Assembly (NCBI GenBank): GCA_958295785.1
Contig: OY282377.1
Span: forward strand, 2,184,394-2,248,393
DNA length: 64,000 bases
Direction of reading: 5' to 3'
Source: an uncultured Latescibacterota bacterium
Lineage (GTDB): Bacteria > Latescibacterota > UBA2968
The notes under the pieces are model-generated. The model had not been told where the DNA came from, searched no databases, and saw only the letters and a list, made by a program, of their open reading frames with translations. Shown here piece after piece: positions 4,883 to 58,063 of the stretch; within the stretch, counting starts at the first letter, position 1, and each line of letters begins with the position of its first letter. A program made the position numbers and the translations under genes.

Positions 4883-4994
4883 GAGTCCCTAACAAAAAGC
4901 GTTGACATGGATTTGTGAGAGGCCGACTTTGAGGCGTTCCTGCGGGTGTTCACTCCTCTGTTTCAGACGCTTGATTTCTTTATGTGAGGGCTTC
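4883..4994 (+). repeat. Rep-B copy 1
   Basis: A 112-bp unit starting GAGTCCCTAAC and ending TGAGGGCTTC. It is nearly identical to copies at 53957-54069 (same orientation) and 57563-57680 (inverted). The last two bracket an island inside the CRISPR tail. No ORF is evident. Confidence 0.75.
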
Positions 4995-34855: not shown

Positions 34856-34858
34856 TGC

Positions 34859-36589
34859 ATGAGCGACATTACAATTACCTTTCCACGCTTAAATCAATTT
34901 TGGAATGATTCCGGTGTGTTGGGGCTTTACAGATGTATCATCGGAGATATTCATCAAGAGCCACAACGAAGTGTTGATGATCCACGCGAAAATTTGGATG
35001 CGGATTTTCAAACAATTACAAAACTCGAAGTCAATCAATTAACGATAGCAGGCGAGGTTGGTGCAGTGCAAGGTTTGTTAGAAACGGCCTATGACCGTTT
35101 GATTAAGCACTATTACGACCTATCTTCTGAAAAACAATGGGAAGATCGCACATCCCATAACTTTTTTTTTAATTCAGCAGAAGCGAACTTTGAAAGATTC
35201 CCAAAACGCAAGTCCAAAGGGATAGCCGCCTTTATTTTTGACAAGGCACCCCGTCCTGAGGGGAAGCAGGTCAAGTGGGCAGATAAAACACCCGGGAAAT
35301 TACCTGGCGACTACGCCCATCTTCAAGGCCGATTAGATCAATTTTTAGAATCCGAAAAACTGAAACCAGGGCCGCCTGCGGGTATGTTGATTGATGAACC
35401 CAATCGCGTGCGTCCGAAAGTGATCATTCAAGTTCAAGAGCGCAAGGTCAGACGCAAATCAGATCCTTGCTTCTTATGTGGTTGCACATCTTCCAAAATG
35501 GAAAAAATAAATCAAACGATTTTTCCCTTTATGACCGGCGATTCGGGCGTGCTTTCGTTTTTTTCTAACACGCGAGGGGCAACTCGAGTGTGTTGGCGTT
35601 GTTCTTTTATCGGAAAATTTGTGCCGGTCAATGGCTTTTATATTCAAACGGGTGGTCGCATGCACATGTTTTTCCCCTTCGCGCCCAACTTATGCAAAAT
35701 GAATGACGTGTACAGTCGGTTAAAACGAGTCACAAAATGGGATCCTAATTTCTTTCGTAATATAGAACTGAGACTTGGCGGTTATTTTTCACATCCCGCT
35801 GAAATGGTTTTTGCGTTTCTCCATCGCGTTTATGACGAACTCACGAGAGAAGATGAATTGAACGAGGATGATGATCCTTTTGAGAGTGAAGAATTCCAAC
35901 GAGAAGTTTCTAATTTTGCATTCAAAGATGCTCCGCTGTCCTTCTTCATTGTCTCCACTGAGCAAAAAGGACAAACGCAAATGCCGACCCAAGTCAGGCT
36001 TTATGATGATTTGGTTTATATCTTCCGGCTTTTTCGGCATTTACGCGAAAAAGGTATGAGATGGAAGTCTATTGCACAAAATATGCTGGATTTTACAGCG
36101 GACAAAGATGACAACAAATCTCTAAAACGCAATCGCCTGCTCGATGCTGTGCTCACAAAACAGTCCATACTCAAGCAAGTCGAAACCTTTGCTTTTCATG
36201 TCAACCGGTCTGAAAACCGATATATCGCACCTCTGGTCGAATTTACGACGCAGTACGAAACCCTTCTAGAAGGAGAAAACAATATGGAGAAAGAAGCATT
36301 GGATGCCGCGGTCTCATTGGGTAAGCGAATTGGTACCACTGTTGCCCGAGAAAGCGGTAAAAAGGGCAATCTCTTTTCACTTAGGAAATGTCGAAAGTTG
36401 TCCGATTTTCTCAATGAATTGAATCGGCTTCAATTTCGGTTCAATGTCGTCATTCCACCCGCTGTTTATGAAGGCCATTTGACCGATACCAATTTTGAAA
36501 AGTTCAAAGGCTTTTGTATGGTGGTCGCATTAAACGCTTTTAATGCCGGCACGGCTCCCAAACGCGAAACCACAACGCAAAACAATTAA
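34859..36589 (+). CDS. cas8b: type I CRISPR large subunit Cas8 (Cas8b/Cst1-like)
   Basis: A 576-aa protein between cas6 and cas7, the position of the Cascade large subunit, which recognises the PAM. Two CxxC motifs (CFLCGC near residue 204 and CWRCS near 245) form the zinc finger typical of the Cst1/Cas8b group. The rest is diverged. ATG 34859 follows GAGGAG. The sequence and gene order favour subtype I-B of the Tneap/Cst kind, but a family search would be needed to fix the subtype. Confidence 0.8.
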   Translation: MSDITITFPRLNQFWNDSGVLGLYRCIIGDIHQEPQRSVDDPRENLDADFQTITKLEVNQLTIAGEVGAVQGLLETAYDRLIKHYYDLSSEKQWEDRTSHNFFFNSAEANFERFPKRKSKGIAAFIFDKAPRPEGKQVKWADKTPGKLPGDYAHLQGRLDQFLESEKLKPGPPAGMLIDEPNRVRPKVIIQVQERKVRRKSDPCFLCGCTSSKMEKINQTIFPFMTGDSGVLSFFSNTRGATRVCWRCSFIGKFVPVNGFYIQTGGRMHMFFPFAPNLCKMNDVYSRLKRVTKWDPNFFRNIELRLGGYFSHPAEMVFAFLHRVYDELTREDELNEDDDPFESEEFQREVSNFAFKDAPLSFFIVSTEQKGQTQMPTQVRLYDDLVYIFRLFRHLREKGMRWKSIAQNMLDFTADKDDNKSLKRNRLLDAVLTKQSILKQVETFAFHVNRSENRYIAPLVEFTTQYETLLEGENNMEKEALDAAVSLGKRIGTTVARESGKKGNLFSLRKCRKLSDFLNELNRLQFRFNVVIPPAVYEGHLTDTNFEKFKGFCMVVALNAFNAGTAPKRETTTQNN

Positions 36590-36601
36590 AAGGAGGTTGT
36601 C

Positions 36602-37507
36602 ATGGCTGCTGATTTTTCAAAAGCCAAAGCGATTACCATTACCTATCTCACACCCGTATCATTTGCCAGTTTGAATGGCAGTGATAAAGAAGCTGACAAT
36701 ATTTCCAGTATCAAAAAGCTCACGCGCGAGACAGATAATGGTGTTAAAGAATTTCCCTACGTCTCATCCCAAGCCATTCGACGCGCTTTGCGCGACCAAC
36801 TCGCTACTATGGGATATTCGCTTTCTGAGGGTGTCACCGCCAAAGAAGCCAAAGGCGCGGCTACGACCCAGTGCAATCCCGCTGATTATTTGGATGACGA
36901 TTTGTTTGGGTTTATGGATGCGGCCAAAGGCGAAAAAACGCGCAAAAGAACATCCTCTGTGCGTGTGTCGCCTTTGGTCGCCCAAGATGCCTACCAGGGC
37001 GACCTCGACTTTGGGACCAATTACATGAGCGTGAAAGCGGGGGGAACGCCCAATATCTTTGAAACAGAAATACACGGCGGACTTTATCGCGGTACAATTT
37101 TGATCGAATTGGATCGCGTTGGCTCTGGCGAGGGATTTAAAAAGGATATAGACGCCAAGCAAAAATCTGACCGCGTAAAAGCCTTGCTCGATGCGTTGCA
37201 AAATTTATGGAGTTCTGGCCGGCAAAGCCGCTTTCTGGCAGATTTGAGTCCAAAATTTGTCGCTGCGGCCATTACGACCGTTAAAGCACCGATCTTTCTC
37301 GAATCCGTTCAGGTGAAAGGCAATACGCTGAGTGGTACAACGCTTGACGAGGTATTGGCAGATCATAAAAATGTGGTGATCGGCTCGGTGTTTGGATCTC
37401 GTACAGGTTTATTTCAAAGCACTCCCGACGATACCAAAACGGTTGGAGAGGCTTTTTTCGCCATAAAAAAGTGGGTTCAGGAGTGTTACGACCAGAACGG
37501 AGCATAG
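36602..37507 (+). CDS. cas7: Cascade backbone protein Cas7 (Cst2/DevR family)
   Basis: A 301-aa RAMP protein with AAGGAGG 6 nt before the ATG. The N-terminal ITYLTPVSFASLNGSDKEAD and FPYVSSQAIRRALRDQL patterns are characteristic of the DevR/Cst2 Cas7 family. Several copies coat the crRNA spacer. The strong ribosome-binding site fits its high stoichiometry. Confidence 0.9.
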   Translation: MAADFSKAKAITITYLTPVSFASLNGSDKEADNISSIKKLTRETDNGVKEFPYVSSQAIRRALRDQLATMGYSLSEGVTAKEAKGAATTQCNPADYLDDDLFGFMDAAKGEKTRKRTSSVRVSPLVAQDAYQGDLDFGTNYMSVKAGGTPNIFETEIHGGLYRGTILIELDRVGSGEGFKKDIDAKQKSDRVKALLDALQNLWSSGRQSRFLADLSPKFVAAAITTVKAPIFLESVQVKGNTLSGTTLDEVLADHKNVVIGSVFGSRTGLFQSTPDDTKTVGEAFFAIKKWVQECYDQNGA

Positions 37508-37510
37508 GCT

Positions 37511-38215
37511 ATGTTTCTCGTTGCCCTTGAGATGTATGCCGAAACCGCGTCGTTTAGAGTTTCGGAAACCCATACATTCCATAAGACCTTGGCATTGCCG
37601 CCATATACCACTTGCGTTGGCATACTGGGTGCTACGCTCGGTTTGGATATGGAGACCGCCCAAAGCTATGTCAAAGAAAATGGCATATCAATCGGGGTTG
37701 CAGGGCATGATCGCGGCGAGTTTCGAGATTTGTGGAAATACCGCAAGGTGAAATCGAAAGAAACCATTTCGGATGTTCTCATTCGAGAATATCGCGTTGA
37801 TTTGACCTGTCTCATTGTTTATGGCACGCAAGCCAAAGAATCCGCGGATGTGATTGCTGATGGATTCAGCGATCCGGTGTACGCGCTGACTGCCGGGCAT
37901 AGTGACAGTTTGATTCACCTTCGCAATATCGAAGTTTTAGAGGCCGATCCCAGGCCCCTACAAACGCTGGAGAATTGCTGGGTGCCTGGGGATCTCGCCC
38001 CACTTTATCAGCCCGATGAAGCGATTTTGGCCTTGCCTATTACGCAAAAAATTCGCCCACCTGCGATAACGCACTTGCCTGTTTCGTTTTCTTTTTTTGG
38101 AGATAAACGGACAGTGCAAGCACGCGAACCTTTTACGTTTGTGGGCAATCAAATCGGGCTTTCGGAGCCAGTTGATGGATTTTTGATCAATGACCACAAG
38201 GTGGTTCTGCGATGA
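37511..38215 (+). CDS. cas5: Cascade subunit Cas5
   Basis: A 234-aa RAMP protein. The N-terminus MFLVALEMYAETASFRVSE and LPPYTTCVGILGATLGL are the Cas5 hallmark (strand plus glycine-rich segment). It caps the crRNA 5' handle. Its stop overlaps the cas3 ATG (ATGA), giving translational coupling. Confidence 0.9.
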   Translation: MFLVALEMYAETASFRVSETHTFHKTLALPPYTTCVGILGATLGLDMETAQSYVKENGISIGVAGHDRGEFRDLWKYRKVKSKETISDVLIREYRVDLTCLIVYGTQAKESADVIADGFSDPVYALTAGHSDSLIHLRNIEVLEADPRPLQTLENCWVPGDLAPLYQPDEAILALPITQKIRPPAITHLPVSFSFFGDKRTVQAREPFTFVGNQIGLSEPVDGFLINDHKVVLR

Positions 38216-40521
38216 TTTTTCTTGCAAAGAGCCATCCCGATCAATCCTACGAGCAACATGTCTGGCAGGTTTACTTGGCATGGAAAAACCTCATTGGGCG
38301 ACATGCAACACTCATTGCACGCTTATGTCGGCGTCATCGGGTAGATAGGGATCGGTTTCTCATTCGGTCCCTGCTCACGGTCGCGCTCCACGATATGGGC
38401 AAGTTGTCGGTCAACTTTCAGCGCATGATGCACGCCAAGTCAAACATTGAACGCCATCGCGCTATCGTTGCCAATTTTAGGCATGAGTACGCATCTGTTG
38501 CTTTTGTAAGGTCTGCGGTTTTAAGTCTGAACAAAGAAACGGGCGTTTTGCTCAAGCAAAATCCTCATATTCCCTTAGAGGCAATGGCTGTTTTAGGGCA
38601 TCATAAAACCGTTGATGCGAGTCTCACTCATTTTGAACGCGAGCGGTATAATCCCAAAAGTCTGAAATGGGAAGCGGGCAGTTTAGAAGAAGGCAAGCGC
38701 GTTGCACAGAACATTTTTGATGACTACGGCAGTCCACTTCCTCAAATTGATTTTGCAAAATGTTTTGAATATGCAGGTACGCGTGGTGTATGCAAATTTG
38801 CAATGGAATTGCACAAATACGTCTCGGATTATCCATCTGCACGCGAGTTGTTCGCTTTGATAAAGGGATTGCTTATGACGGCTGATTGGTGTGCGTCGTC
38901 AGATGATCCTAACTATAAAACACACATTCAGGTCGGGCCTGATTTGGTCGCGCCATATTTGCGAGAAAAGGTTGAGAGTGGCGGCGAAATTTATGATGGA
39001 TTTAGCGCATTTCAGGAGAACTGCGGAAAAACAAAAGGACACATTATTGTAGTCGCACCGACGGGAAGTGGAAAAACAGAAGCCGCCCTATTGTGGAGCC
39101 TCAAACAAATTGAACAAGGGGATGTAAATAAAATTTTATATTTGCTTCCCACAATGGTTACGGCAAATAGCCTTCATGAGCGCGTGCGAAAGTTCTTCTC
39201 GGCCCATAACCATGGGGTTGGTTTGACCCATTCAATGGCTGATCTCGTTTTGCTTAAAGAAGAAAAGCAAGAGAGCAGTGGGCGCGAATCTGATCTATAC
39301 AAAGATTTGTTATTTAATCGCCACTTTTTCCCGCCTGTTACAGTCGGCACAGTGGATCAATTGCTGACCACGCTTTTTCATAGTGGTCGTTGGCCGTTGA
39401 AAACATTCGCGGCTCAAGATTCTGCGATCGTACTGGATGAGATTCATTCTTACGATCCCTATACGTCGGGGCTGATATACAAAGCGATTGAGCAATTGGC
39501 AGCGGTTGGGGCACGGTTTATGATTATGAGCGCGACATTTCCGAGTTCTCTGACCGAGATGTTTCGATCCTTGCTTGAAAAATCCGCGCCAGTACGCGTT
39601 GTGCGCGACAGAGAATTGCTGCAATCTGCACGCAGTCGTTATCAAACTGTTGATGACGACTTGGTGAATTATCTCCAAGAAATTCGTGACCAAATTAACA
39701 AGGGCAAGCGTATTCTCGTTGTGATAAATACGGTTGCAGGCTGTCAGGAAATAACAAAAAAATTAACAGATTTGGATATGAATCCAATCTGTTATCACTC
39801 AAAATTTATCCTGAGAGATCGCCAAAAAAAAGAAAAGCAAATTCTCAATGAGAACCCATCTGTGGTTGTTGCAACACAAGTGGTTGAGGTCGCTTTAGAT
39901 ATCGATTTCGACATTTTGTTTACGGAGTGCGCCCCCCCAGATGCTATTGCCCAACGCGCAGGCCGAATCAATCGAAAACGAAAACGTAAGGGGCAAGTGC
40001 TCATTTTCCCCCCAGGACCTGGATCAGATCGAATTTACTTTGATGATACACGCAAAGAGCAGAAACCTGAAGAACGTCTTTTATCGCGTTCTTTTAAGAT
40101 TTTTTCAGAATATCAAAACCGTGAAATTACAGAACAAGAGCTTTTAGATATTGTCGAGCAAGTATATGAAAATCAACAGATTGAAGTCCATGAAGCTTTC
40201 GGACATGCTGTCGATTTGATTAAAGATGAGCAAGAGCGTTTTTGCGGTTTATTGGATCCCGAAAAGGATGATGAAAAACGAACTACTCGTTTGGAAAAGT
40301 ACATCCAAGTAAGTGTTATACCGTCTCAATTTCGTGAAGAAGTACTCGAGCTCACTCATCTCCGTCATCGGCGGCTTTATGAACTCAAAATGCCCGCGTG
40401 GTATGTGAAACAGAATGAAATCAGAGATCCAGAGTGTGGAGACATTGTATTTTGCGAAATGAAGTATGACGATCATTTGGGAGGGCAGTTTGCGGAACAG
40501 GAGGCTATCATGATGTTTTGA
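38212..40521 (+). CDS. cas3: CRISPR-associated helicase-nuclease Cas3
   Basis: A 769-aa fusion of HD nuclease and SF2 helicase. HD motifs: His16 in YEQHVWQV and HDMGK at 60-64. Helicase motifs: APTGSGKTEAAL (Walker A, about 282), VLDEIHSYD (DEIH box, about 408), MSATFPSSL (motif III) and AQRAGRINR (motif VI). It is recruited by Cascade and degrades target DNA with ATP. No HD or helicase residue appears lost, so it is predicted active. It starts within the cas5 stop codon. Confidence 0.95.
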   Translation: MIFLAKSHPDQSYEQHVWQVYLAWKNLIGRHATLIARLCRRHRVDRDRFLIRSLLTVALHDMGKLSVNFQRMMHAKSNIERHRAIVANFRHEYASVAFVRSAVLSLNKETGVLLKQNPHIPLEAMAVLGHHKTVDASLTHFERERYNPKSLKWEAGSLEEGKRVAQNIFDDYGSPLPQIDFAKCFEYAGTRGVCKFAMELHKYVSDYPSARELFALIKGLLMTADWCASSDDPNYKTHIQVGPDLVAPYLREKVESGGEIYDGFSAFQENCGKTKGHIIVVAPTGSGKTEAALLWSLKQIEQGDVNKILYLLPTMVTANSLHERVRKFFSAHNHGVGLTHSMADLVLLKEEKQESSGRESDLYKDLLFNRHFFPPVTVGTVDQLLTTLFHSGRWPLKTFAAQDSAIVLDEIHSYDPYTSGLIYKAIEQLAAVGARFMIMSATFPSSLTEMFRSLLEKSAPVRVVRDRELLQSARSRYQTVDDDLVNYLQEIRDQINKGKRILVVINTVAGCQEITKKLTDLDMNPICYHSKFILRDRQKKEKQILNENPSVVVATQVVEVALDIDFDILFTECAPPDAIAQRAGRINRKRKRKGQVLIFPPGPGSDRIYFDDTRKEQKPEERLLSRSFKIFSEYQNREITEQELLDIVEQVYENQQIEVHEAFGHAVDLIKDEQERFCGLLDPEKDDEKRTTRLEKYIQVSVIPSQFREEVLELTHLRHRRLYELKMPAWYVKQNEIRDPECGDIVFCEMKYDDHLGGQFAEQEAIMMF

Positions 40522-40532
40522 CATAACTTCTT

Positions 40533-40565
40533 TTGCTGTACCTTCCGTTAGAACAAGGATTGAAC
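40533..40565 (+). promoter_or_regulatory. CRISPR-repeat-like sequence over the cas1 ribosome-binding site
   Basis: CTTCCGTTAGAACAAGGATT followed by GAA (40542-40564) matches the CRISPR repeat CTTCCATCAAAACAAGGATT-GAA at 20 of 23 positions. With one gap the similarity extends leftward through GCTGTACC (repeat GCTTCAC). The cas1 start codon ATG lies at 40566, so the AAGGA Shine-Dalgarno is inside the repeat-like segment and the putative Cas6 cut (GG/ATTGAAC) separates it from the ATG. Confidence 0.8.
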
Positions 40566-41576
40566 ATGCAACTCGTAATCAACACGTATGGCGCGTATTT
40601 GAGTCGGCGAGGGGAGTTGTTTCAGGTGAAGGTGGCGGAGAAAACGACTGAAATTTCTGCGCGCAAAGTGCAATCCATACTCATAGCAACGGCCGCGGCG
40701 TTTTCGACGGATGCGGTGCAACTCGCGGTGGAGAAGAACATTGACATCCTCTTTCTCGACAAATACGGCGATCCCTTTGGGCGCGTGTGGCACGGGCGAC
40801 CTGGATCGACAACGGCCATTCGCCGGATGCAACTCGAAGCCGCACAAACCGACCTCGGCGCGCAACTCGCCCTCGCCTGGATCGAGCGCAAATTCGACCA
40901 TCAGATCGCATTGCTCACGCGCATGCGCGACCGTCGCACGCGGCTTTCAGCGCAACTGACCGAGGCCATTGGCAGCCTCAAAACCCTCAAAGAACACATG
41001 CAGGCCCTCACTGGCAATGCCTGTGCGGATACGGGGGCAATCCGCATCGACGCCGTGCGCCAGCGGTTGCTCGGTTTGGAAGGCCGCGCTGGGCGCACCT
41101 ATTGGGCCGCAATGTCCTTGCTTTTGCCCGACTCCTATCGCTTTGAAGGCCGCAGCCGCAACCCGTCCAAAGACCCGTTCAACTGCCTGCTCAATTACGC
41201 TTACGGCATGCTCTATGGGATCGTGGAACGCGCCTGCCTGCTTTCGGGACTCGACCCCTACATTGGCTTTATTCACACGGACCACTACAACAAGCCCTCC
41301 CTTGTTTTTGACCTCATTGAACAATATCGCATCTGGGCGGATGAAACCGTGCTCGGCCTTTTTTCAGCGCGAAAAATCAAACGCGACCTGTTCGAAAAAT
41401 TAAAAAACGGCCTCACCCTGAACAAACAGGGCAAAGCCGTGCTCATCGACGCATTTACCAATTACCTTGACACCGCCATCCGCTATCGGGGCCGCAACAT
41501 CACGCGGCGGGACAGCATCCAATTTGACCTGCATCGCATTGCCAATGATCTGTTGCCCAAAGACACCCGCACATAG
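40566..41576 (+). CDS. cas1: CRISPR adaptation endonuclease Cas1
   Basis: A 336-aa integrase subunit. ATG 40566 (MQLVINTYGAYLSRRGELF) is the normal Cas1 start and has AAGGA 6 nt upstream; a TTG at 40533 would add 11 residues. The metal-binding residues appear in GLEGRAG (Glu about 171), FIHTDHYN (His about 237) and LVFDLIEQYR (Asp about 250). With Cas2 it integrates new spacers at the leader end. Base composition is more GC-rich than in the effector genes upstream, suggesting the adaptation block has a separate history. Confidence 0.95.
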   Translation: MQLVINTYGAYLSRRGELFQVKVAEKTTEISARKVQSILIATAAAFSTDAVQLAVEKNIDILFLDKYGDPFGRVWHGRPGSTTAIRRMQLEAAQTDLGAQLALAWIERKFDHQIALLTRMRDRRTRLSAQLTEAIGSLKTLKEHMQALTGNACADTGAIRIDAVRQRLLGLEGRAGRTYWAAMSLLLPDSYRFEGRSRNPSKDPFNCLLNYAYGMLYGIVERACLLSGLDPYIGFIHTDHYNKPSLVFDLIEQYRIWADETVLGLFSARKIKRDLFEKLKNGLTLNKQGKAVLIDAFTNYLDTAIRYRGRNITRRDSIQFDLHRIANDLLPKDTRT

Positions 41577-41587
41577 GAATTTGTCCC

Positions 41588-41905
41588 ATGAACATCAAAT
41601 TGAAATCCGACGAATCGCTCACTTGGATCCTCTACGACATCTCCAAGGACAAAGGCCGACGTCATGTGGTCAAAGCCTGCAAAGAAGCCGGTCTCTACCG
41701 CGTTCAAAAATCCGTCTTTCTCGGCACGGTCAAGCACAATCGCCTCGACGAACTTTCAATGCAAATTGAAGACCACATTGACCCGGAAACCGACCGCGTG
41801 TACATTTTTCCCATGTGCGCGATGGACTTTCGCAAAGTCATTCTTCAAGGTCAGGTTTTTGACAGCGCGCTCGTGACCGACAAGGTGAGGAGTTTGTTCC
41901 TGTGA
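41588..41905 (+). CDS. cas2: CRISPR adaptation protein Cas2
   Basis: A 105-aa protein with the beta1 strand and conserved Asp in LTWILYDISKDKGR and the RVQKSVFLG segment of Cas2. It forms the dimer that bridges two Cas1 dimers. It is 11 bp after cas1 and overlaps cas4 by 4 bp. Confidence 0.95.
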   Translation: MNIKLKSDESLTWILYDISKDKGRRHVVKACKEAGLYRVQKSVFLGTVKHNRLDELSMQIEDHIDPETDRVYIFPMCAMDFRKVILQGQVFDSALVTDKVRSLFL

Positions 41906-42498
41906 GCGATACCGAAACCACAATGATGATCACGCCGTCAGAGGTGATTGAGCACGTCTATTGTCCGCGTTTCACCTATTACATGAATGTGCTCAACATC
42001 CCGCAGTTTGAAGACCGCCGCTTCAAAGTGCTCAAAGGCAGGGAAGTCCACAAACGCCGGGAAAGGGAAAACCGATTTTACTTGCGTAAGAAAATTGGCG
42101 TTGTCAATCGCGACCTCAATGTGTATCTTGCATCGCCCACCCTTGGCGTTCGCGGCGTGGTGGATGAAGTTTTGACCTTGCAAGATGACACCCTCGCCCC
42201 TTTGGATTACAAATATTCACCCTATCGAGAGCAGGCATTCAAAACCCATCGCATCCAAATAACACTCTACGGCCTCTTGACCCGCGAAGCCTATCAAAAG
42301 CGCGTGACCCGCGGATACATCGCCTACATTCGCGGCGGCAGTCGTCTATTTGAAGTCCCTATCGGCGAGGCTGAAGAACGCAGGGCACAACAAATTGTGG
42401 CTGAAATTTTCGACATCATTCAAACCGGACGACTGCCGAAAAAAACACCTCACCGATCCAAATGTGGTGACTGTTGTTACAAAAATATTTGCGTCTAA
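41902..42498 (+). CDS. cas4: CRISPR-associated exonuclease Cas4
   Basis: A 198-aa Fe-S nuclease. GTG 41902 overlaps the cas2 stop (GTGA). The cluster Cys are at position 21 (HVYCPRFTYY) and in KCGDCCYKNIC at the C-terminus. RecB-type motifs: VRGVVDEVL and LAPLDYKYS (D-x-K). It trims prespacers and helps PAM selection. The order cas1-cas2-cas4 differs from the common cas4-cas1-cas2. It ends about 170 bp before the array. Confidence 0.92.
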   Translation: MSDTETTMMITPSEVIEHVYCPRFTYYMNVLNIPQFEDRRFKVLKGREVHKRRERENRFYLRKKIGVVNRDLNVYLASPTLGVRGVVDEVLTLQDDTLAPLDYKYSPYREQAFKTHRIQITLYGLLTREAYQKRVTRGYIAYIRGGSRLFEVPIGEAEERRAQQIVAEIFDIIQTGRLPKKTPHRSKCGDCCYKNICV

Positions 42499-42670
42499 AA
42501 ACAAAAATGGCGCAATCCGTTGAAAATCAAGACGTTGGAAAAATCCCATTCTGCAAAGGAGGAGCATTATGCCTGCTTTTCGGCGAAAAAAAGGGCGGTC
42601 AAACCGAGATTACGCCGTCCAGTTGGCTCGTATAACCCGTTGCAATTTCAAACGATATACATAGGTTGAC
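42499..42670 (+). promoter_or_regulatory. CRISPR leader
   Basis: The 172 bp between cas4 and the first repeat. New spacers are expected to enter at 42671. The array transcript should start here or upstream of cas1, since no terminator separates them. It contains the short ORF described separately. Confidence 0.7.
42569..42664 (+). CDS. 31-aa basic leader peptide (hypothetical)
   Basis: ATG 42569 has AAAGGAGG about 6 nt upstream, one of the best ribosome-binding sites in the window. It encodes MPAFRRKKGRSNRDYAVQLA and eleven further residues, with ten Arg/Lys in 31, and stops at 42664, 6 bp before the first repeat. It lies entirely in the CRISPR leader. It resembles no family I know and may be fortuitous, but the strong initiation signal argues for translation. 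Confidence 0.4.
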   Translation: MPAFRRKKGRSNRDYAVQLARITRCNFKRYT

Positions 42671-45600
42671 CTCTCGCTTCACTTCCATCAAAACAAGGAT
42701 TGAAACAGAGTCGAGATGGAGTGGGAAAAGATGGGCACTACACTCTCGCTTCACTTCCATCAAAACAAGGATTGAAACATTGGCTTGACGGGCTTGGCAT
42801 TGCGTACGAGGATGCTCTCGCTTCACTTCCATCAAAACAAGGATTGAAACACGGTGTGGGTTTCGTCATCAATTATCCGGGGCGCCCTCTCGCTTCACTT
42901 CCATCAAAACAAGGATTGAAACCGAGTTTACTTTCCGCAATATCCCCGTATCGAGCAGTCTCTCGCTTCACTTCCATCAAAACAAGGATTGAAACTTTGG
43001 GAGGTCGTATCATGGGAGAGTGCAGGGCCAACTCTCGCTTCACTTCCATCAAAACAAGGATTGAAACCCGTATTCCACGCCGGCGACAGGAATCTCAAGG
43101 CCGCTCTCGCTTCACTTCCATCAAAACAAGGATTGAAACAACAACAGCGTCAGATAGCCGCGGACAAGCGGGTACACTCTCGCTTCACTTCCATCAAAAC
43201 AAGGATTGAAACTTTGTTGTTCACCTTCCCGACATCCACGCGCGGCCCCCTCTCGCTTCACTTCCATCAAAACAAGGATTGAAACAGACGTACGAGGGGG
43301 CTCGGATCCCGAGAACGGGACTCTCGCTTCACTTCCATCAAAACAAGGATTGAAACAATATTTTCTTTTCGCCAACCGCGTCGTCGTCGAGGCTCTCGCT
43401 TCACTTCCATCAAAACAAGGATTGAAACGAAGCCTTTTTTGCAGCACACTGCTTCACAGGTGCCCTCTCGCTTCACTTCCATCAAAACAAGGATTGAAAC
43501 CTCGCGCGTGTTTGTCCGCCTCCTCGCTATAAAAGGCTCTCGCTTCACTTCCATCAAAACAAGGATTGAAACAGAGGTTCATTTAAAAAACCGATCAAGC
43601 GTCTGGCCCGCTCTCGCTTCACTTCCATCAAAACAAGGATTGAAACCGCCACGGGATGGACTTGGCCGCGCGCTTGGCCGCGCTCTCGCTTCACTTCCAT
43701 CAAAACAAGGATTGAAACTCAGATTGCGCCGCGAGATGCCCGCGCGGGCGAGATACTCTCGCTTCACTTCCATCAAAACAAGGATTGAAACAGTGCCGGA
43801 CGATGCGAATGATGCGGATCGTGTGACTCTCGCTTCACTTCCATCAAAACAAGGATTGAAACAAGAACGCATGCGCGCACACCACGAGGCATGCGGGCTC
43901 TCGCTTCACTTCCATCAAAACAAGGATTGAAACTCTCATTACAGTCACGATCAGCCACTACGAGCTGACTCTCGCTTCACTTCCATCAAAACAAGGATTG
44001 AAACGAGGAAAAAACCCTCGATGGCAACTATACCCTGTTCTCTCGCTTCACTTCCATCAAAACAAGGATTGAAACCTGACTATTGCGCTGTTCTGATACA
44101 AAAAATTATAGACTCTCGCTTCACTTCCATCAAAACAAGGATTGAAACTTATTTCTGAGCGCGGGGAACGACCCCGCCATACACCGCTCTCGCTTCACTT
44201 CCATCAAAACAAGGATTGAAACGGTGGATCGAGGCATTCAGGATGCGAATCACCCTGCTCTCGCTTCACTTCCATCAAAACAAGGATTGAAACCCGATCA
44301 TCCGGTAAAGCGTGGACGTGTGGCAGTGACTCTCGCTTCACTTCCATCAAAACAAGGATTGAAACGGGAAAAATAAGCACGTAAATGGTTAAAGTCAACC
44401 AACTCTCGCTTCACTTCCATCAAAACAAGGATTGAAACCTGGCCGTTCGCGCTACGCGGAGCGAGGCCGAGACCTCTCGCTTCACTTCCATCAAAACAAG
44501 GATTGAAACCCATTACCATCATTACCATCATAATAACCTGGAAAACTCTCGCTTCACTTCCATCAAAACAAGGATTGAAACATGCGGTGAGCGTGGTCGA
44601 TATTCGCATCACCGCAAACTCTCGCTTCACTTCCATCAAAACAAGGATTGAAACGGTATCGTGGTGCGTGCAGAAGCCGCACGCAGGGACTCTCGCTTCA
44701 CTTCCATCAAAACAAGGATTGAAACTCCTTCCGAACGTGAGCGAAAAACAACTTTGCCGATTCTCTCGCTTCACTTCCATCAAAACAAGGATTGAAACTG
44801 AAGTTCGCCGAGGACGCGTATAGGAAATTGTCAGACTCTCGCTTCACTTCCATCAAAACAAGGATTGAAACCCCGCTGGCAATGCCGAAGCGAGCAACCC
44901 CAACCCCACTCTCGCTTCACTTCCATCAAAACAAGGATTGAAACTCGAATGAGATGTACCCCGCAAGATTTTTGCGGGTCGTCTCTCGCTTCACTTCCAT
45001 CAAAACAAGGATTGAAACCGTCTGGATGGTAGCGAAACTACCTTCGGGTGGACTCTCTCGCTTCACTTCCATCAAAACAAGGATTGAAACATAGAGTTGC
45101 AATTTCGAATGCAAATCGCCCCACTTGCTCTCGCTTCACTTCCATCAAAACAAGGATTGAAACAAAATCTTGGGCCCTCATAAAAGTGGGCAATCCTTCC
45201 TCTCGCTTCACTTCCATCAAAACAAGGATTGAAACGCGGACGGCCCATCCGATCCGGCAATCTCCATTCCGAGCTCTCGCTTCACTTCCATCAAAACAAG
45301 GATTGAAACTATCTGTTTTTCGCACGCCCGGATCACCCGCCCCTTCTCTCGCTTCACTTCCATCAAAACAAGGATTGAAACACCAGCAGACGGATCTAGC
45401 GCTTCAGTGGAGCACGACTCTCGCTTCACTTCCATCAAAACAAGGATTGAAACATGAGATCGACGTCACGCCAGCGGCGCGAACGCCAGACCTCTCGCTT
45501 CACTTCCATCAAAACAAGGATTGAAACAAGGTATCGACATCACCCCCAACACCGAGCTTTTCAACTCTCGCTTCACTTCCATCAAAACAAGGATTGAAAC

Positions 45601-48600
45601 CGGCTGGTCACGGCCAACCCCGCCGTCCACATCCACTCTCGCTTCACTTCCATCAAAACAAGGATTGAAACCTCGCTACTGGCATCGACTCGCTTGCGAG
45701 GGCGCGGCTCTCGCTTCACTTCCATCAAAACAAGGATTGAAACTCAACATAGAAGTGGATAAATGCGAATAAAGCGCGTTCTCTCGCTTCACTTCCATCA
45801 AAACAAGGATTGAAACGGAGATTCATTTGAAATACCGGTCAAGCGCCTGACCTGCTCTCGCTTCACTTCCATCAAAACAAGGATTGAAACGGGATCGACG
45901 GTTGGGAGAGTTCGCGGATATGCTGACTCTCGCTTCACTTCCATCAAAACAAGGATTGAAACCTGTCCAATCCATCAGCTCGAGGGCATCCTTATTTTCT
46001 CTCGCTTCACTTCCATCAAAACAAGGATTGAAACCATTCAGCACCGACATTGAACGTATTGAACGTATTGCTCTCGCTTCACTTCCATCAAAACAAGGAT
46101 TGAAACAAACCCACCAGGGGTATAGCCTCAGTTACCGCGAACTCTCGCTTCACTTCCATCAAAACAAGGATTGAAACAAGACTACAATGGGGGGGTCTAT
46201 GGGACGGATGGCATCTCTCGCTTCACTTCCATCAAAACAAGGATTGAAACCCTTGATCCATTTCCCTATATTCACCCATTCTTTTTCTCTCGCTTCACTT
46301 CCATCAAAACAAGGATTGAAACAGCAGTCCCGGGCCCCTCAAAATCACATTCTCTATGCTCTCGCTTCACTTCCATCAAAACAAGGATTGAAACATATTC
46401 ACGCCTGGCCCATCCGAATCATGCAGGTTGACTCTCGCTTCACTTCCATCAAAACAAGGATTGAAACAAGATATGCCGCAACCCGGATACAACGAACCCC
46501 TGCTCTCTCGCTTCACTTCCATCAAAACAAGGATTGAAACAGAAACTTGCCAATGGCATCAACAGCGGCGTCGCGCTCTCGCTTCACTTCCATCAAAACA
46601 AGGATTGAAACAGCGGGTAGCCGGCCACTGGGCGACAACGAAAGGGGGCTCTCGCTTCACTTCCATCAAAACAAGGATTGAAACCGCGCGTTCGACTGGC
46701 ATGTGGGCGCAGAGAAGGGGCTCTCGCTTCACTTCCATCAAAACAAGGATTGAAACGTCTCTCTCGCTCGGCGATCAGCTCTTCCTCTCCCGACTCTCGC
46801 TTCACTTCCATCAAAACAAGGATTGAAACATCATGCGCGCCGCAAGCGCCTGCCTCGCTTCGAGCCTACTCTCGCTTCACTTCCATCAAAACAAGGATTG
46901 AAACTCCACGCGACGAATCCGCGGGCATCCACCGCGGGCATCCTCTCGCTTCACTTCCATCAAAACAAGGATTGAAACAGCGAGCGCGATGTGGCCGACA
47001 TGGAGACGTTGCGACTCTCGCTTCACTTCCATCAAAACAAGGATTGAAACTATCGTTCGAGATGGGAGGGAGTGTTTTCATTTTTTCTCTCGCTTCACTT
47101 CCATCAAAACAAGGATTGAAACCAGCTGACCCCGCGCTGAATCAACTGCGGGACGAGACTCTCGCTTCACTTCCATCAAAACAAGGATTGAAACCCCAGC
47201 ATGACCTGCGGATCGCACAAATTCTGGAGGCTCTCGCTTCACTTCCATCAAAACAAGGATTGAAACATATATTTCGCCCTCGAATTCGATCAGGCGCCCG
47301 CGCCTCTCGCTTCACTTCCATCAAAACAAGGATTGAAACGAAAACCTCGAATGATATCTTTTCGAGTCCGCCCCGCTCTCTCGCTTCACTTCCATCAAAA
47401 CAAGGATTGAAACTGCTTTTGTTCCCGTCCTTGCTGGTGACTCTATGAACTCTCGCTTCACTTCCATCAAAACAAGGATTGAAACTTGATTCGTCTCTCA
47501 TCCCGTTTGATCTCGATGGCTCCTCTCGCTTCACTTCCATCAAAACAAGGATTGAAACTCCGTCCACCGGAAAATGAAATGATGGCAGGCCCGCGCTCTC
47601 GCTTCACTTCCATCAAAACAAGGATTGAAACCCGCCCCGGGGGCGGGCGTAAAACGGCCCTCTCTAATCTCTCGCTTCACTTCCATCAAAACAAGGATTG
47701 AAACGACGTTCGCATGGCCGGAATATCCGGCGTTCACATGCTCTCGCTTCACTTCCATCAAAACAAGGATTGAAACTTTAGCTGAATTGTGGCGGCCGAT
47801 AGGGTGGCGATGCTCTCGCTTCACTTCCATCAAAACAAGGATTGAAACGTCGGAAAATGTAGTAGTATTTATGGGAGCGCGGGGACTCTCGCTTCACTTC
47901 CATCAAAACAAGGATTGAAACTTCCGGGGGTGAAAAAAGAGGAAAAAAGACTTGCTTCTCTCGCTTCACTTCCATCAAAACAAGGATTGAAACACGATGC
48001 GCGAGCTCATCTTGAGGCACGCTTTGGCGCTCTCGCTTCACTTCCATCAAAACAAGGATTGAAACCTGAGTTGACCCCTACGGAAATTGGGGCTGTTCTG
48101 CTCTCGCTTCACTTCCATCAAAACAAGGATTGAAACATTCGATCCGCACCATCTCGAATGCCCCCCCCGCGGACTCTCGCTTCACTTCCATCAAAACAAG
48201 GATTGAAACCACCTTGGAATATTCCCACCGCCCCGCCGATCACCCTCTCGCTTCACTTCCATCAAAACAAGGATTGAAACAGCGCCAGCTCTCCACGATC
48301 TGGCATAGGTAGCGGCTCTCGCTTCACTTCCATCAAAACAAGGATTGAAACCCCGCCTTTCGGGATATCGATGGCCGCGACAAGACGCTCTCGCTTCACT
48401 TCCATCAAAACAAGGATTGAAACTTGGATCCCCACAAAATATTCCGGGTCCGACCAGCCTCTCGCTTCACTTCCATCAAAACAAGGATTGAAACGTCGGA
48501 AAATGTAGTAGTATTTATGGGAGCGCGGGGACTCTCGCTTCACTTCCATCAAAACAAGGATTGAAACTTCCGGGGGTGAAAAAAGAGGAAAAAAGACTTG

Positions 48601-51600
48601 CTTCTCTCGCTTCACTTCCATCAAAACAAGGATTGAAACACGATGCGCGAGCTCATCTTGAGGCACGCTTTGGCGCTCTCGCTTCACTTCCATCAAAACA
48701 AGGATTGAAACCTGAGTTGACCCCTACGGAAATTGGGGCTGTTCTGCTCTCGCTTCACTTCCATCAAAACAAGGATTGAAACATTCGATCCGCACCATCT
48801 CGAATGCCCCCCCCGCGGACTCTCGCTTCACTTCCATCAAAACAAGGATTGAAACCACCTTGGAATATTCCCACCGCCCCGCCGATCACCCTCTCGCTTC
48901 ACTTCCATCAAAACAAGGATTGAAACAGCGCCAGCTCTCCACGATCTGGCATAGGTAGCGGCTCTCGCTTCACTTCCATCAAAACAAGGATTGAAACATA
49001 TTTTCCCAAAATGTCTCAATGGGTTTACTGATGGCTCTCGCTTCACTTCCATCAAAACAAGGATTGAAACTAAGCGAACCTATAGAAAAAGCCCCCTGGA
49101 TCCACCTCTCGCTTCACTTCCATCAAAACAAGGATTGAAACTCTCGGCTCGACGAGCAGGACCTCGAAGCGTTTTGTCTCTCGCTTCACTTCCATCAAAA
49201 CAAGGATTGAAACACGAGGCAGTGCGCGACACCTACTCACAGGATCGCCCTCTCGCTTCACTTCCATCAAAACAAGGATTGAAACAGGTTCGGGATTACC
49301 CTAAAAGAAGACTTGAAGATACTCTCGCTTCACTTCCATCAAAACAAGGATTGAAACGGCATTGGAAATAGCCGCCCCTGGGGCCGGGCGTAAACTCTCG
49401 CTTCACTTCCATCAAAACAAGGATTGAAACATCCAGGAGTTCAAAGCCGCTCCAAGCGGCTGGCTCTCTCGCTTCACTTCCATCAAAACAAGGATTGAAA
49501 CATGTCTGCAAGATATCCGACGACATCGGTCGGCTTGCTCTCGCTTCACTTCCATCAAAACAAGGATTGAAACCGGACGATATGAATTCCAATGTATCAT
49601 GAAGGGGGGCTCTCGCTTCACTTCCATCAAAACAAGGATTGAAACCCTGCCGCCGTCAAACAGTTCGCCCGCCAATGGCGCTCTCGCTTCACTTCCATCA
49701 AAACAAGGATTGAAACAAAGGTACTCCAGACAGTCTTAAGATGAGCAGTTTTGCTCTCGCTTCACTTCCATCAAAACAAGGATTGAAACCGGCAAGAGCG
49801 CAATTTGTAGTGTGGAAAACGACTCCTCTCGCTTCACTTCCATCAAAACAAGGATTGAAACAGAATCCTCCCGGGATTTCCCGATACGTAGAATATTCTC
49901 TCGCTTCACTTCCATCAAAACAAGGATTGAAACAACGACGGAACGGGCACGGGCGCATTTTATGTTCAACTCTCGCTTCACTTCCATCAAAACAAGGATT
50001 GAAACAATGAAAATCGATGTGCGTTCCAAGGCGTCTCGCTGTTCTCTCGCTTCACTTCCATCAAAACAAGGATTGAAACCCGATCAGTCCTCCGGCGTAC
50101 CTCGTCAAACTAACCCTCTCGCTTCACTTCCATCAAAACAAGGATTGAAACACCGTCGCATGCTTCCCGCTACTATTGATGACCGGCTCTCGCTTCACTT
50201 CCATCAAAACAAGGATTGAAACCTGGGCACCGGTCCCCAGCCCGACAATGCAGAGGGCTCTCGCTTCACTTCCATCAAAACAAGGATTGAAACCGCATCC
50301 AGTACAGCCTCAAGGGATGTGCTACTCATCTCTCGCTTCACTTCCATCAAAACAAGGATTGAAACATAAAGTTTTCTTGCCATTTCGTAAAGCATCCATT
50401 CTCTCGCTTCACTTCCATCAAAACAAGGATTGAAACGGATCCCCGAAAGCGCGGACTCGATTCCACCGAAACTCTCGCTTCACTTCCATCAAAACAAGGA
50501 TTGAAACTGGCGAACGCTTTGCGCGCAGCCACGCAATCGAATTCTCTCGCTTCACTTCCATCAAAACAAGGATTGAAACTTTAATGAGACACAAAACGTG
50601 GAAGTGAAAGATGGACTCTCGCTTCACTTCCATCAAAACAAGGATTGAAACCTATCATGGCGGAGGTGGCGATCAAATATCCGTATGCTCTCGCTTCACT
50701 TCCATCAAAACAAGGATTGAAACACACCGTCCCCATCTGCATCAATTCCAAAAAGCTGACTCTCGCTTCACTTCCATCAAAACAAGGATTGAAACTATAA
50801 TGGGCCGGTGGATTATGCGTTGGAATTGTTCTCTCGCTTCACTTCCATCAAAACAAGGATTGAAACATGTTTTTTCGGTGAGATCCTCGGGAGGGAGCAG
50901 GCTCTCGCTTCACTTCCATCAAAACAAGGATTGAAACCTCTGGCCGGTTGCGTTCAAGCGGGGGGGGCTGAAATCTCTCGCTTCACTTCCATCAAAACAA
51001 GGATTGAAACCTCTGGCCGGTTGCGTTCAAGCGGGGGGGGCTGAAATCTCTCGCTTCACTTCCATCAAAACAAGGATTGAAACTTTCGCGTACTGTCGGG
51101 CAAAGGACGGCGTCATCCACTCTCGCTTCACTTCCATCAAAACAAGGATTGAAACCGTTTAAGCCAACATCAAGCCTCACGTGAAGCCGACTCTCGCTTC
51201 ACTTCCATCAAAACAAGGATTGAAACCGATCTGCAAGAGGATCAGAACCGAAATCTTGCCGCTCTCGCTTCACTTCCATCAAAACAAGGATTGAAACACT
51301 ACTGCGCCCTTTTCTATCTGCTATCACTTGCCAACTCTCGCTTCACTTCCATCAAAACAAGGATTGAAACCCAAATGCAACCGCCAACCCCACACATATT
51401 CAACAACTCTCGCTTCACTTCCATCAAAACAAGGATTGAAACATTGACGAAATGTGGGGATTGGCGAAGCCATTGGACTCTCGCTTCACTTCCATCAAAA
51501 CAAGGATTGAAACTTTGGCAGCACGGGCATTGACGTGATGATCGCCGACCCTCTCGCTTCACTTCCATCAAAACAAGGATTGAAACGGCAACAAGTTCCC

Positions 51601-51877
51601 ATTCCGAAGTTGAGGGATCAACACTCTCGCTTCACTTCCATCAAAACAAGGATTGAAACCCCTTTTGGCCCCGGCCCGGTGCAGATGAGGGAGACCTGCT
51701 CTCGCTTCACTTCCATCAAAACAAGGATTGAAACCATACGCTTCGTCGTCCATATTTTCGGCTCCGCCCGTCTCTCGCTTCACTTCCATCAAAACAAGGA
51801 TTGAAACTGGTGGTTCCGTTCGCTCTGCTCACCTTTTCGGCTACTCTCGCTTCACTTCCATCAAAACAAGGATTGAA

Positions 51878-53071
51878 TACTCTGTAAATTAAGTTATTTT
51901 AAGTTTTGAATTGTCTGGATAAACGCGTTGATAATGGGTATTCATCTTGTCTCTGGCCTTGGGCAAAGTGAACTGCCAATTCAAGGGGATACCCTTGGCC
52001 TCTCGCTCCTGGAAAAAGGCCAAAACTTCCCGGCGTAGTTCCGCCTTTGTCGCAATGCGCCTATTCAAACATCCTCGCGCCAGAGCCGAAAATTCGATCT
52101 CGATCATGTTGAGCCAACTCGCCGACTTGGGGGTAAAGAAGAACTCAAACTTCTGCGCGAGGGCAAACGCCTCATCGGCCGGCAAGTAACGATAGAAGGC
52201 ATGGCGGGTATGCGTGTTGAGATTGTCTTGCACCAAGCGGATTTTCTCCGCTTGTGGCCAATGCTGTGTCAGGGCCTGACAAAAGTGGGTGTATTCCTTC
52301 ATCGTGCGCCGGGGATAGATTTCGGCAAGCCGTTTGCCGGTTAAAGGCTCAATGGCGGCCAACAGCGCACACGAGCCGTGTTTGGTATAGGCATAATGTT
52401 CTTTGGTCACTTGGCCTGTTGTTAGGGGCAAGGGATCAAGGACTTGTCCGATGAGAAAACAAGGACGTTCATCAAAGCAGACCACAGGAACATTGGGATC
52501 ATGAGGTTGGTCATACAGCCAAAGCAAGGCTTCCATGCGTGCGAGAAAGGACGCATCCACTTTGCGGATGCACCATGTTCTCTTCAAGTGGGGCTTCAAT
52601 TCGTTTTTTTTAGAATCGTCTTGACATGCGTGTGTGAGAGATGCTCACAAGAGCCCAATGCCACGCAGTGATCCGCCAAGAGGCGCAACGTCCATCTGCC
52701 ATGGCCTGCCGAGGGGGTTGAACAGGCCAAGGCGGTGATTTGGGCCCGTTGCTTGCCCGTCATCTCCACCGGGCGTCCTGGCCGCGGGGCATCTTTGAGG
52801 CCATCCAAGCCGAGGGTGCGGTATTTCTTTGCCCAATTGCTCAGGGTCTGCCCGGTCATGCCGAGGGTTTGAGCCACTTGAGTGTAGGTTTTGCCTCGGT
52901 CAAGTTCAAGCAAGCCCAAAGCGCGTTTGTAGATTCGGGCTTTTTGGTCTCCTTTGGTGATCAAGGCGGTCAAAGTATCTCGGTCTGTGGGGGTGAGTTG
53001 GACGTGTTGTTTGGGCATGCGAACGCCTCCTTGAAATAATTGAAATTCCAAAGTATTTAATTTACAGAGTA
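51878..53071 (-). mobile_element. IS630-family element copy B inside a CRISPR repeat
   Basis: A 1194-bp element with ends TACTCTGTAAATTAA. It lies inside the 3' end of repeat 128, with TTGAA on both sides (51873-51877 and 53072-53076). A 5-bp duplication is unexpected for IS630, which normally duplicates TA. It is nearly identical to copy A at the other side of the cas operon but inverted relative to it. Confidence 0.92.
51889..53018 (-). CDS. IS630-family transposase in two frames, probable -1 frameshift
   Basis: The HTH frame (53018 down to 52596; AAGGAGG upstream of the ATG) ends TILKKTN. The DDE frame (to 51889) begins KKNELKPHLKRTW when read -1 across an eight-A tract near 52609. IS630 elements often use such a slippery tract to make the full transposase. 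DDE motifs: VVCFDERP, LVQDNLNTHT and WLNMIEIEFSAL. No internal stop is seen, so the copy may be active. Confidence 0.85.
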
Positions 53072-53956
53072 TTGAAACTCAGTAGGATGGCGAAAGTAAC
53101 GATTCCAAATCCGATTCTCTCGCTTCACTTCCATCAAAACAAGGATTGAAACTGCGCGTCGTCCACGTTGGCGGCACCCGCATGTAGTCCTCTCGCTTCA
53201 CTTCCATCAAAACAAGGATTGAAACCGCTTGGTAACGCGCAATAGCAGTAGGGGAATCGAACCTCTCGCTTCACTTCCATCAAAACAAGGATTGAAACAC
53301 CTGGCCCGCGTAACTGGCAAAGGAAACAACCGCGCCCTCTCGCTTCACTTCCATCAAAACAAGGATTGAAACCATCATCCGAAGCGAGGCCATCATCCTG
53401 ATCAAACTCTCGCTTCACTTCCATCAAAACAAGGATTGAAACTGGATACTGACGACATGAAAGATCAGCGCCTCATGCTCTCGCTTCACTTCCATCAAAA
53501 CAAGGATTGAAACGACGGTGCATAAGAAGCTCCTATTGCGGGTTCGGACACTCTCGCTTCACTTCCATCAAAACAAGGATTGAAACCTCTCCTTTGCTGG
53601 TGGTTTCGCCGGCACTATTTGCTCTCGCTTCACTTCCATCAAAACAAGGATTGAAACCCGGAGGCCACGCGAGAGCGATTTTAGGATTATTCTCTCGCTT
53701 CACTTCCATCAAAACAAGGATTGAAACTGCAGAATCGAAATGGTAAAGGAGAAACCATGAAACTCTCGCTTCACTTCCATCAAAACAAGGATTGAAACTA
53801 CTGCTCACGGGTAATGCCGTATTCCGAAAGGGTGCTCTCGCTTCACTTCCATCAAAACAAGGATTGAAACTAACCAGCAGAACGACATAAGGTTACACAA
53901 GCGGACTCTCGCTTCACTTCCATCAAAACAAGGATTGAAACCCTCTGGGCCGTCTT

Positions 53957-57003: not shown

Positions 57004-57137
57004 GACATAGACTCCTCTCCGAATGCGAGCCGATCTCGCGCGCTGGCGTGAGGCAGAATGGCAGTTGGGGCGCGCTTTGTATGATATGATTTCACGCTGG
57101 AAACGCATGGGGCGTTTCGCTATATTGATGGGGTCTT

Positions 57138-57562
57138 ATACCCATTTGATTTTTCTTTGTCCGTCTCCTGCCTCCTATCAGGGAGGAATGAGGAATGGGG
57201 AACAGATGTTCCGTAGAGATCATGCGGTGCTTGTCTCAAGCGTTGGGTTCTGCCTCCTCGTGGGTTGCCTTCGATGCGTTGGCTACGCCTGTGCCTACGG
57301 CGTGCGGCGACCTCCTTTTTTTCAACAGCAAAAAAAGGAAGCAAAAAATGCCGCTCTCATGCGCCGAGGGGGGCTCTGCACAGCGCAAAGCGCTTTGCGG
57401 GTCACACACCATGCGCTGGCCTGCGAGGTGGGGTGCAAGAGGGAGGTGGGTTGCGAGACGGCCTTGCGCGCTGTGCGCGATGGTTTTATCGGAGGGTCTT
57501 TTGGGATGGCCTTTTTGCCATGGCTTTTCTGAATGCCTAGGTAACGTCAAGGGAATCATTAA
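57138..57562 (+). repeat. Rep-A copy 5 (right end truncated by Rep-B)
   Basis: Starts ATACCCATTTGATTTTTC and carries the full core. The right terminus is missing where Rep-B copy 3 begins at 57563. Rep-A copy 1 also abuts a Rep-B, so the two families are linked twice. Confidence 0.75.
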
Positions 57563-57680: not shown

Positions 57681-57718
57681 AAATCTCGAGAATCTCCCCT
57701 TACACCAGTGAGGGGAGC

Positions 57719-57798
57719 GGATTGAAACCATTCAAGTCGGCGACGATTTGCGCGAGAATCGCCTCTCGCTTCACTTCCATCAAAACAAGGATTGAAAC
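57719..57798 (+). CRISPR. detached CRISPR tail: repeat relic, spacer and one intact repeat
   Basis: GGATTGAAAC at 57719-57728 is the last 10 bp of a repeat. A 34-bp spacer follows, then a perfect repeat at 57763-57798. They continue the main array beyond the Rep-B island. Confidence 0.9.
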
Positions 57799-57849
57799 GA
57801 AAAAAAGGTTGTGCTCAAGCGCGGACTTTTGTAATTTTTTTTGCCTTCA

Positions 57850-57936
57850 CAATGCAATGTAGACTCAATTTGGTAGAGTGGCGTTCCGAGGCAACTCGGT
57901 GGGCGTGTTGCGGGTTCAAGTCCCGTCATTGCATTG
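57850..57936 (+). tRNA. tRNA-like sequence without a normal anticodon loop
   Basis: A 7-bp acceptor-type stem TGCAATG/CATTGCA (extendable to 10 bp as CAATGCAATG/CATTGCATTG), a D-arm ACTC-AATTTGGTA-GAGT and a T-arm GCGGG-TTCAAGT-CCCGT are all present, with no encoded CCA. Between the D and T arms 30 nt replace the usual 22-23. The best fold there is CCGAG-GCAA-CTCGG, a GNRA-capped stem, rather than a 7-nt anticodon loop. If forced into a class II fold the anticodon would read GAG, but position 33 is not T. It lies between the last intact and the degenerate CRISPR repeat and is followed by a T-run. Confidence 0.5.
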
Positions 57937-57989
57937 TGGGGCTATTTTTTTAGTGGGATCGCGAATCTCGCGTGCGTCCACTCTCCAAC

Positions 57990-58025
57990 CTCTCACAACA
58001 CTTCCATAAAAACACAGATTGAAAC
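57990..58025 (+). CRISPR. degenerate terminal CRISPR repeat
   Basis: CTCTCACAACACTTCCATAA then AAACACAGATTGAAAC keeps both repeat ends with several internal differences, typical of the trailer-end repeat of an array. It marks the original distal end. Confidence 0.8.
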
Positions 58026-58026
58026 T

Positions 58027-58063
58027 TAAAAAGCCATCCTGATCTCATCAGGATGGCTTTTTT
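58027..58063 (+). terminator. rho-independent terminator after the CRISPR array
   Basis: A-run, stem AAGCCATCCTGA, loop TCTCA, stem TCAGGATGGCTT, T-run, placed directly after the degenerate last repeat. It probably ends the pre-crRNA and may also act on the convergent M48 gene. Confidence 0.9.

Follow-up and report, generated by a model that had tools for sequence, protein, structure and literature searches.

Among the closest described counterparts of the element reported here are the CreTA modules, small RNA genes bounded by degenerate repeats and linked to type I loci of clustered regularly interspaced short palindromic repeats (CRISPR; PMC8501985, PMC10097628, PMC9458426). The characterised archaeal CreT toxins act on the supply of transfer RNA (tRNA) (PMC8501985, PMC10097628, PMC9458426), and the CreA guide pairs through ten seed bases, nucleotides 1-5 and 7-11 (PMC8501985). 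Pieces of tRNA can also enter arrays: in Thermococcus nautili a spacer-sized viral tRNA fragment, consisting of the T arm and one acceptor strand, lies in a CRISPR array (PMC9897764), and it is the only tRNA piece in an array that we found in open-licence papers. Here we consider an RNA encoded in a 64,000-nucleotide stretch of an uncultured Latescibacterota bacterium (contig OY282377.1, positions 2,184,394 to 2,248,393; hereafter the window), where a tRNA-like cloverleaf whose anticodon arm is replaced by a GCAA-capped hairpin stands between repeats in the tail of a type I-B CRISPR array. Together with its relatives in sister species, this RNA suggests that an RNA gene not described so far is either retained alongside CRISPR or carried by it.

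None of the systems we compared places a non-decoding tRNA mimic in the tail of an array. As in CreTA, the RNA is found with type I CRISPR-Cas systems and degenerate repeats, of type I-B in the window and I-E in a sister species. CreT, however, is a small RNA with a mini-open reading frame and no tRNA fold, the element described here sits inside the array tail, and no seed-matching guide of the kind that CreTA requires over its 10-base seed was found for it. We do not class it as CreTA, although it may be guard-like in action. The T. nautili spacer is likewise tRNA-derived sequence in an array, whereas here a whole tRNA-like unit occupies a 190-bp interval and recurs in three species. Transfer-messenger RNA (tmRNA) shares the upper half of a tRNA without an ordinary anticodon arm, but its end is chargeable and it carries a tag reading frame (PMC3929946), while the end of our RNA is closed and without CCA; neither ARAGORN nor Rfam found a tmRNA domain with a tag reading frame. 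The YrlA Y RNA (RF02553) is also a non-decoding RNA with tRNA-like arms, but the T and D arms stand in the other order in the family alignment, and YrlA was excluded by score (16.2 bits against a cut-off of 69, E 1.1). Racr RNA anti-CRISPRs are small RNAs associated with CRISPR repeats (PMC10651486); they mimic repeats and belong to viral genomes, whereas this RNA resembles a tRNA rather than a repeat, lies in an array on a host chromosome and has no relative in the phage records searched. No other Rfam family scored above its cut-off at the RNA, and a similar element was not found in phage, plasmid or Rfam collections or in the open-licence literature.

A tRNA-like fold and its relatives

The RNA folds as a closed cloverleaf that forms one structured unit, both by energy and in covariance models R1-R3 (Table 1). 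The Rfam tRNA family (RF00005) matches it at 57853-57934 (+) with 34.4 bits against a gathering score of 29 in cmscan (E = 1.1e-5 on a 361-base stretch, 4.2e-5 genome-wide); the default Rfam scan of the whole window did not pick it up, and ARAGORN called neither a tRNA nor a tmRNA there. The fold of 57845-57945 has an energy of -42 kcal/mol and a z score of -4.87, and none of 200 shuffles was as good. These values bear out a preliminary description of the window, made from the sequence alone, which had proposed a tRNA-like RNA lacking an anticodon loop and carrying a GNRA-capped middle arm. The acceptor arm is well formed, as that description held, but its helix runs to 15 bp, 8 bp beyond the usual 7, whereas host tRNAs extend at most 4 bp beyond. 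It is followed by CTATTTTTTT, without CCA or a single-stranded 3' end; most host tRNAs encode CCA (60 of 68 calls, some counted twice).

Among canonical tRNA features, then, the RNA passes the covariance cut-off and lacks both the CCA end and a 7-nt anticodon loop on a 5-bp stem. Forcing such a loop, which would read GAG, on the middle arm makes the fold 14 kcal/mol worse, and the reading as tRNA-Leu(GAG) was rejected on this cost. Because its acceptor end is a closed 15-bp helix without CCA and an unrelated hairpin replaces its anticodon arm, we infer that the RNA, as folded, could be neither charged nor used in decoding. Nor does the host need it as a tRNA, since the 5.66-Mb single-contig genome has 46 other tRNA matches above the cut-off (ARAGORN supplies 45 isotype-anticodon labels).

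The search for homologues next to other arrays, which had been proposed as a check, was successful. A single-sequence covariance model run over 64 genomes of the phylum Latescibacterota returned ordinary tRNAs and one other match with E < 1e-6, in a complete genome of the same genus (G008, OX638329.1). That genome has two tandem tRNA-like RNAs (2295798-2295647 and 2295570-2295425, minus strand), each between CRISPR repeats in an array tail. Two features mark the array as I-B-like: its repeats are similar to the window repeats, and the Cas1 of this genome ranks alongside the window I-B Cas1. A three-sequence model then recovered a fourth copy, in another genome of the genus (G010, C348:16089-16230, 65 bits, E 3.7e-10), again in an array tail. 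Here the repeats are GGTTTCCCCGTGTGTACGGGGATAGACC and the contig encodes Cas3, Cse1, Cse2, Cas7, Cas5e, Cas6e and Cas1e, a type I-E system. Despite these different array types, the G010 copy can be aligned with the second G008 copy from end to end. We could not confirm a putative decayed third copy in G010 (L209, ~1980-2110). In G008, just before the tandem pair, an element of about 150 bp with inverted ends lies inside a CRISPR repeat (~2296080-2295940, minus strand; L099).

The structure, location, orientation and recurrence of the RNA can be read directly from these genomes. All four copies lie between CRISPR repeats in array orientation, with one to three repeats behind them, and all have a closing helix of about 15 bp or longer and a near-identical T arm, GCGGGTTCRAGTCCCGY. 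Their middle parts differ, the three relatives being 45-55 nt longer there than the window copy, and the first G008 copy has an additional perfect 13-bp outer helix (GCAGGCGATATAC/GTATATCGCCTGC). The extended closing helix differs among copies by compensatory changes, which argues for continued selection on the fold. In the model-fitted alignment of the four sequences 96.9% of cells are paired and 16 of the 32 pairs changed on both sides, against 1-6 pairs in slid controls, and neither shuffles nor slid controls reached values as high. Folded alone, the G008 copies have z scores of -5.60 and -3.76; in the first of them the D and T arms are absent from the unconstrained minimum-energy fold, and forcing them costs 5 kcal/mol. 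Upstream of the helix, AAAAAC.CCTAT.TT is conserved between the second G008 copy and the G010 copy. The latter is preceded by a weak -35/-10-like pair (TTGCAC-N17-TATTTT), placed as in the window, to which a consensus scan gives no support.

These comparisons bear on the possibility that the RNA is a decayed tRNA, of host or phage origin, trapped in the tail. The D and T arms have clear tRNA ancestry, and tRNA fragments are known as spacers (PMC9897764), but all helices are intact, the acceptor helix is extended and closed in every copy, and the relatives differ by compensatory changes. Aligned to host tRNAs, the RNA scores at best 62, where the best shuffle reaches 56, which identifies no clear parent, and phage matches span at most 29% of the query, essentially the T arm. 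We regard this origin as very unlikely, and its phage form, which the preliminary description had entertained, is not supported, given the structurally intact relatives in two further species. There is good support for seeing more in the RNA than a trapped tRNA. The other suggestion made at that time, a structured RNA borrowing the tRNA fold, fits the nature of the element, which has homologues adjoining other arrays and may serve in processing or as a decoy.

Array tail, cassettes and distribution

Table 1. Positions in the window of the tRNA-like RNA, its parts and the surrounding CRISPR features.
Feature	Position	Strand	Basis
Type I-B cas operon: cas6b, cas8b, cas7b, cas5b, cas3, cas1, cas2, then probable cas4	34205-42500	+	Pfam, NCBIfam, PADLOC; cas4 read from sequence only
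Main CRISPR array, ~140 repeats CTCTCGCTTCACTTCCATCAAAACAAGGATTGAAAC	42671-53941	+	Repeat positions
Solitary palindromic repeat of another CRISPR class	57690-57728	+	Sequence; few differences from arrayed G017 repeat
Spacer-sized 34-nt stretch between the two repeat kinds	57729-57762	+	Sequence
Intact I-B repeat upstream of the RNA	57763-57798	+	Identical to array repeat
Weak promoter-like pair TTGTGC-N17-TAATTT; would start RNA at closing helix	57809-57837	+	By eye
tRNA-like RNA, full structured unit	57845-57941	+	Fold z -4.87; models R1-R3
Extended 15-bp acceptor helix, 5' strand	57845-57859	+	Pair probabilities 0.88-1.0
D arm ACTC-AATTTGGTA-GAGT	57863-57879	+	cmscan alignment
GCAA-capped hairpin CCGAG-GCAA-CTCGG replacing anticodon arm	57886-57899	+	Pair probabilities >=0.98
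T arm GCGGG-TTCAAGT-CCCGT	57910-57926	+	cmscan alignment; near-identical in 4/4 copies
Extended 15-bp acceptor helix, 3' strand	57927-57941	+	Fold and pair probabilities
T7 run directly after helix, terminator-like	57945-57951	+	Sequence
Degenerate repeat downstream of the RNA	57989-58025	+	82% identical to intact repeat over 44-nt alignment
Terminal hairpin with T run, likely terminator of array transcript	58028-58062	+	Inverted repeat

The preliminary account of the setting also needed correction. The RNA does lie in a CRISPR tail, but about 3.7 kb, with inverted copies of a 120-bp dispersed repeat at both ends (a further copy is at 4880-4994), lie between this tail (57.69-58.06 kb) and the main array (42.67-53.94 kb). 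It also lies between an intact and a degenerate repeat, as originally described, in an interval far longer than a spacer: the distance from one repeat to the other measures 190 bp (57799-57988), against 34-39 bp for spacers of the window. Another dispersed repeat, of about 430 bp, has at least seven copies on both strands of the window (57126-57560 and near 4494, 11941, 25602, 29434, 59884 and 61790). Within the main array, at least six consecutive repeat-spacer units are present as two successive copies at 47841-48990 (46-bp starts at 47914-48273 recur at 48560-48919), which is a segmental duplication, and a two-ORF (open reading frame) DDE-type transposon-like insertion interrupts the array at 51808-53071.

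The position at the end of the array raises the question of whether the RNA serves the array transcript itself, as a terminator and nuclease-resistant cap that ends or protects a long CRISPR RNA precursor. Its constant place in tails, its array orientation and its very stable closed helix would suit such an element, as would the run of 7-8 T within four bases of the helix end in three of the four copies (window, second G008 and G010). The first G008 copy, however, has no T run, the window has a separate terminator hairpin further on, and in G010 a degenerate repeat, followed by a spacer and an intact repeat, extends the array beyond the RNA. A terminator, moreover, does not need a T loop or a D loop. 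We judge this function to be quite unlikely.

A second alternative is that the RNA is a captured cassette without CRISPR function, a phage or mobile-element RNA that entered array tails by repeat recombination and persists by drift or for the sake of the element. The tail combines repeats from two CRISPR classes in a mosaic, the occurrence of the same RNA in arrays of two types fits transfer, its presence in the genus is patchy, and in the genome G017 protein genes are fitted between similar repeats. Conversely, neither the phage and plasmid records nor the viral contigs scanned yielded a relative, and the compensatory changes across copies speak for continued selection on the fold. On balance we find this explanation somewhat unlikely.

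G017 is a relative from the same taxonomic order. At C12:8500-12500 (L100) and C34:281500-285500 (L101), both on the minus strand, its CRISPR-like repeats exactly enclose small protein genes, with the start codon 4 nt past the repeat in three cases and the stop just before the next repeat. Paralogous genes of 58-67 aa recur between repeats; one other gene resembles an exo/endonuclease-phosphatase, and past the last repeat lies an ADP-ribosylglycohydrolase-like gene. The AAGGA of the repeat could be a ribosome-binding site, and the loci resemble an array of cassettes in the style of an integron, with CRISPR repeats as its framework. The solitary repeat within the I-B tail of the window (AATCTCCCC...GGGGAGCGGATTGAAAC) is of the same kind as one arrayed about 30 times in G017:C34.

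Among the fetched arrays of the genus, the RNA is present in three (window, G008 and G010) and was not found at the others with readable ends. The end of the G006 array is orthologous to that of G008 yet has no tRNA-like RNA; the RNA has therefore been gained or lost as a unit, which fits a cassette. With the better model no copies outside arrays were seen in 40 genomes, the next-best hits that were checked being ordinary tRNAs. One 63-bit model hit, in G040, was set aside as an ordinary tRNA gene: ARAGORN reads it as tRNA-Val(gac), and its acceptor helix runs into a long palindromic flank, AACCAAGTGGC/GCCACTTGGC (C96:87546-87633; L246). Searches for DNA-level homologues in 60 relatives, phages and plasmids returned short matches only, mostly T arms of ordinary tRNAs or chance, and no relative was recognised in the viral-contig scans. 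When 84,980 species were scanned for a D arm placed after a repeat end, a pattern that demands one D-arm form and one repeat ending, 55 stretches emerged, of which the G008 record was the only real case by inspection. The remainder were ordinary tRNAs that happened to follow GATTGAAAC, true arrays in which D-arm words had arisen by chance, or stretches lacking a T arm. In another phylum, strict filters returned nothing from 68 genomes around G067, which is a weak test.

Proposed role of the tRNA mimic

The reading we favour, at a probability of roughly 45%, is that the array tail carries, as a cassette, an autonomous small-RNA gene some 100 nt long whose product would be a non-chargeable tRNA mimic serving as an elbow decoy or guard RNA. 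We infer its expression as a small RNA, and a function. Transcription would run in the array direction; the RNA could have a promoter of its own, be released from read-through transcripts by Cas6 cleavage at the repeats on either side, or both. The retained tRNA elbow, formed by the D loop and T loop, may then engage elbow-recognising proteins as a mimic or decoy, with RNase P, T-arm modification enzymes and the CCA enzyme as candidates, and a guard or counter-defence role might be what keeps the gene in the array. Such a role would be like that of CreT, although the RNA differs and no CreA guide is detectable. Recurrence across two CRISPR types, I-B in the window (I-B-like in G008) and I-E in G010, favours this proposal. 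Any use of the RNA by CRISPR is at present a matter of association only.

A strict CreTA module, in which the RNA would be the toxin and its promoter would be silenced by Cascade with a CreA-like guide, is highly improbable in our view. Degenerate repeats adjoin the RNA, the systems are of type I, and, close to where the RNA begins, the best spacers of G008 and G010 match at 8 seed positions. The best of the 139 window spacers, however, has only 7 of 10, and shuffled spacers give 7-11, a range that also includes the 8-match spacers of the two relatives. The resulting lack of a CreA-type guide beyond chance, in the 139 window spacers as in G008 and G010, also counts against the decoy or guard gene that we favour, and it is not the only such point. 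Four copies from three species of one genus are the whole evidence, and most readable arrays of the genus have no tRNA-like RNA, which is therefore not essential to CRISPR. A canonical D arm is present only in the window and first G008 copies and is model-proposed in the other two, the four-sequence alignment was fitted to the model, which favours pairing counts, and no promoter at the RNA reached threshold in a consensus scan.

The broader proposal that these RNAs form a new CRISPR-resident class, non-decoding tRNA mimics that serve for guarding or counter-defence in the array tails of more than one CRISPR type, is possible but tentative. CRISPR arrays are seen as lists of short spacers, and a structured RNA gene between repeats would add functional-RNA cargo to their contents. 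As a guard, the RNA would extend the CreTA idea to an unrelated kind of molecule; as a decoy, it would be a natural tRNA mimic that separates elbow recognition from charging and decoding.
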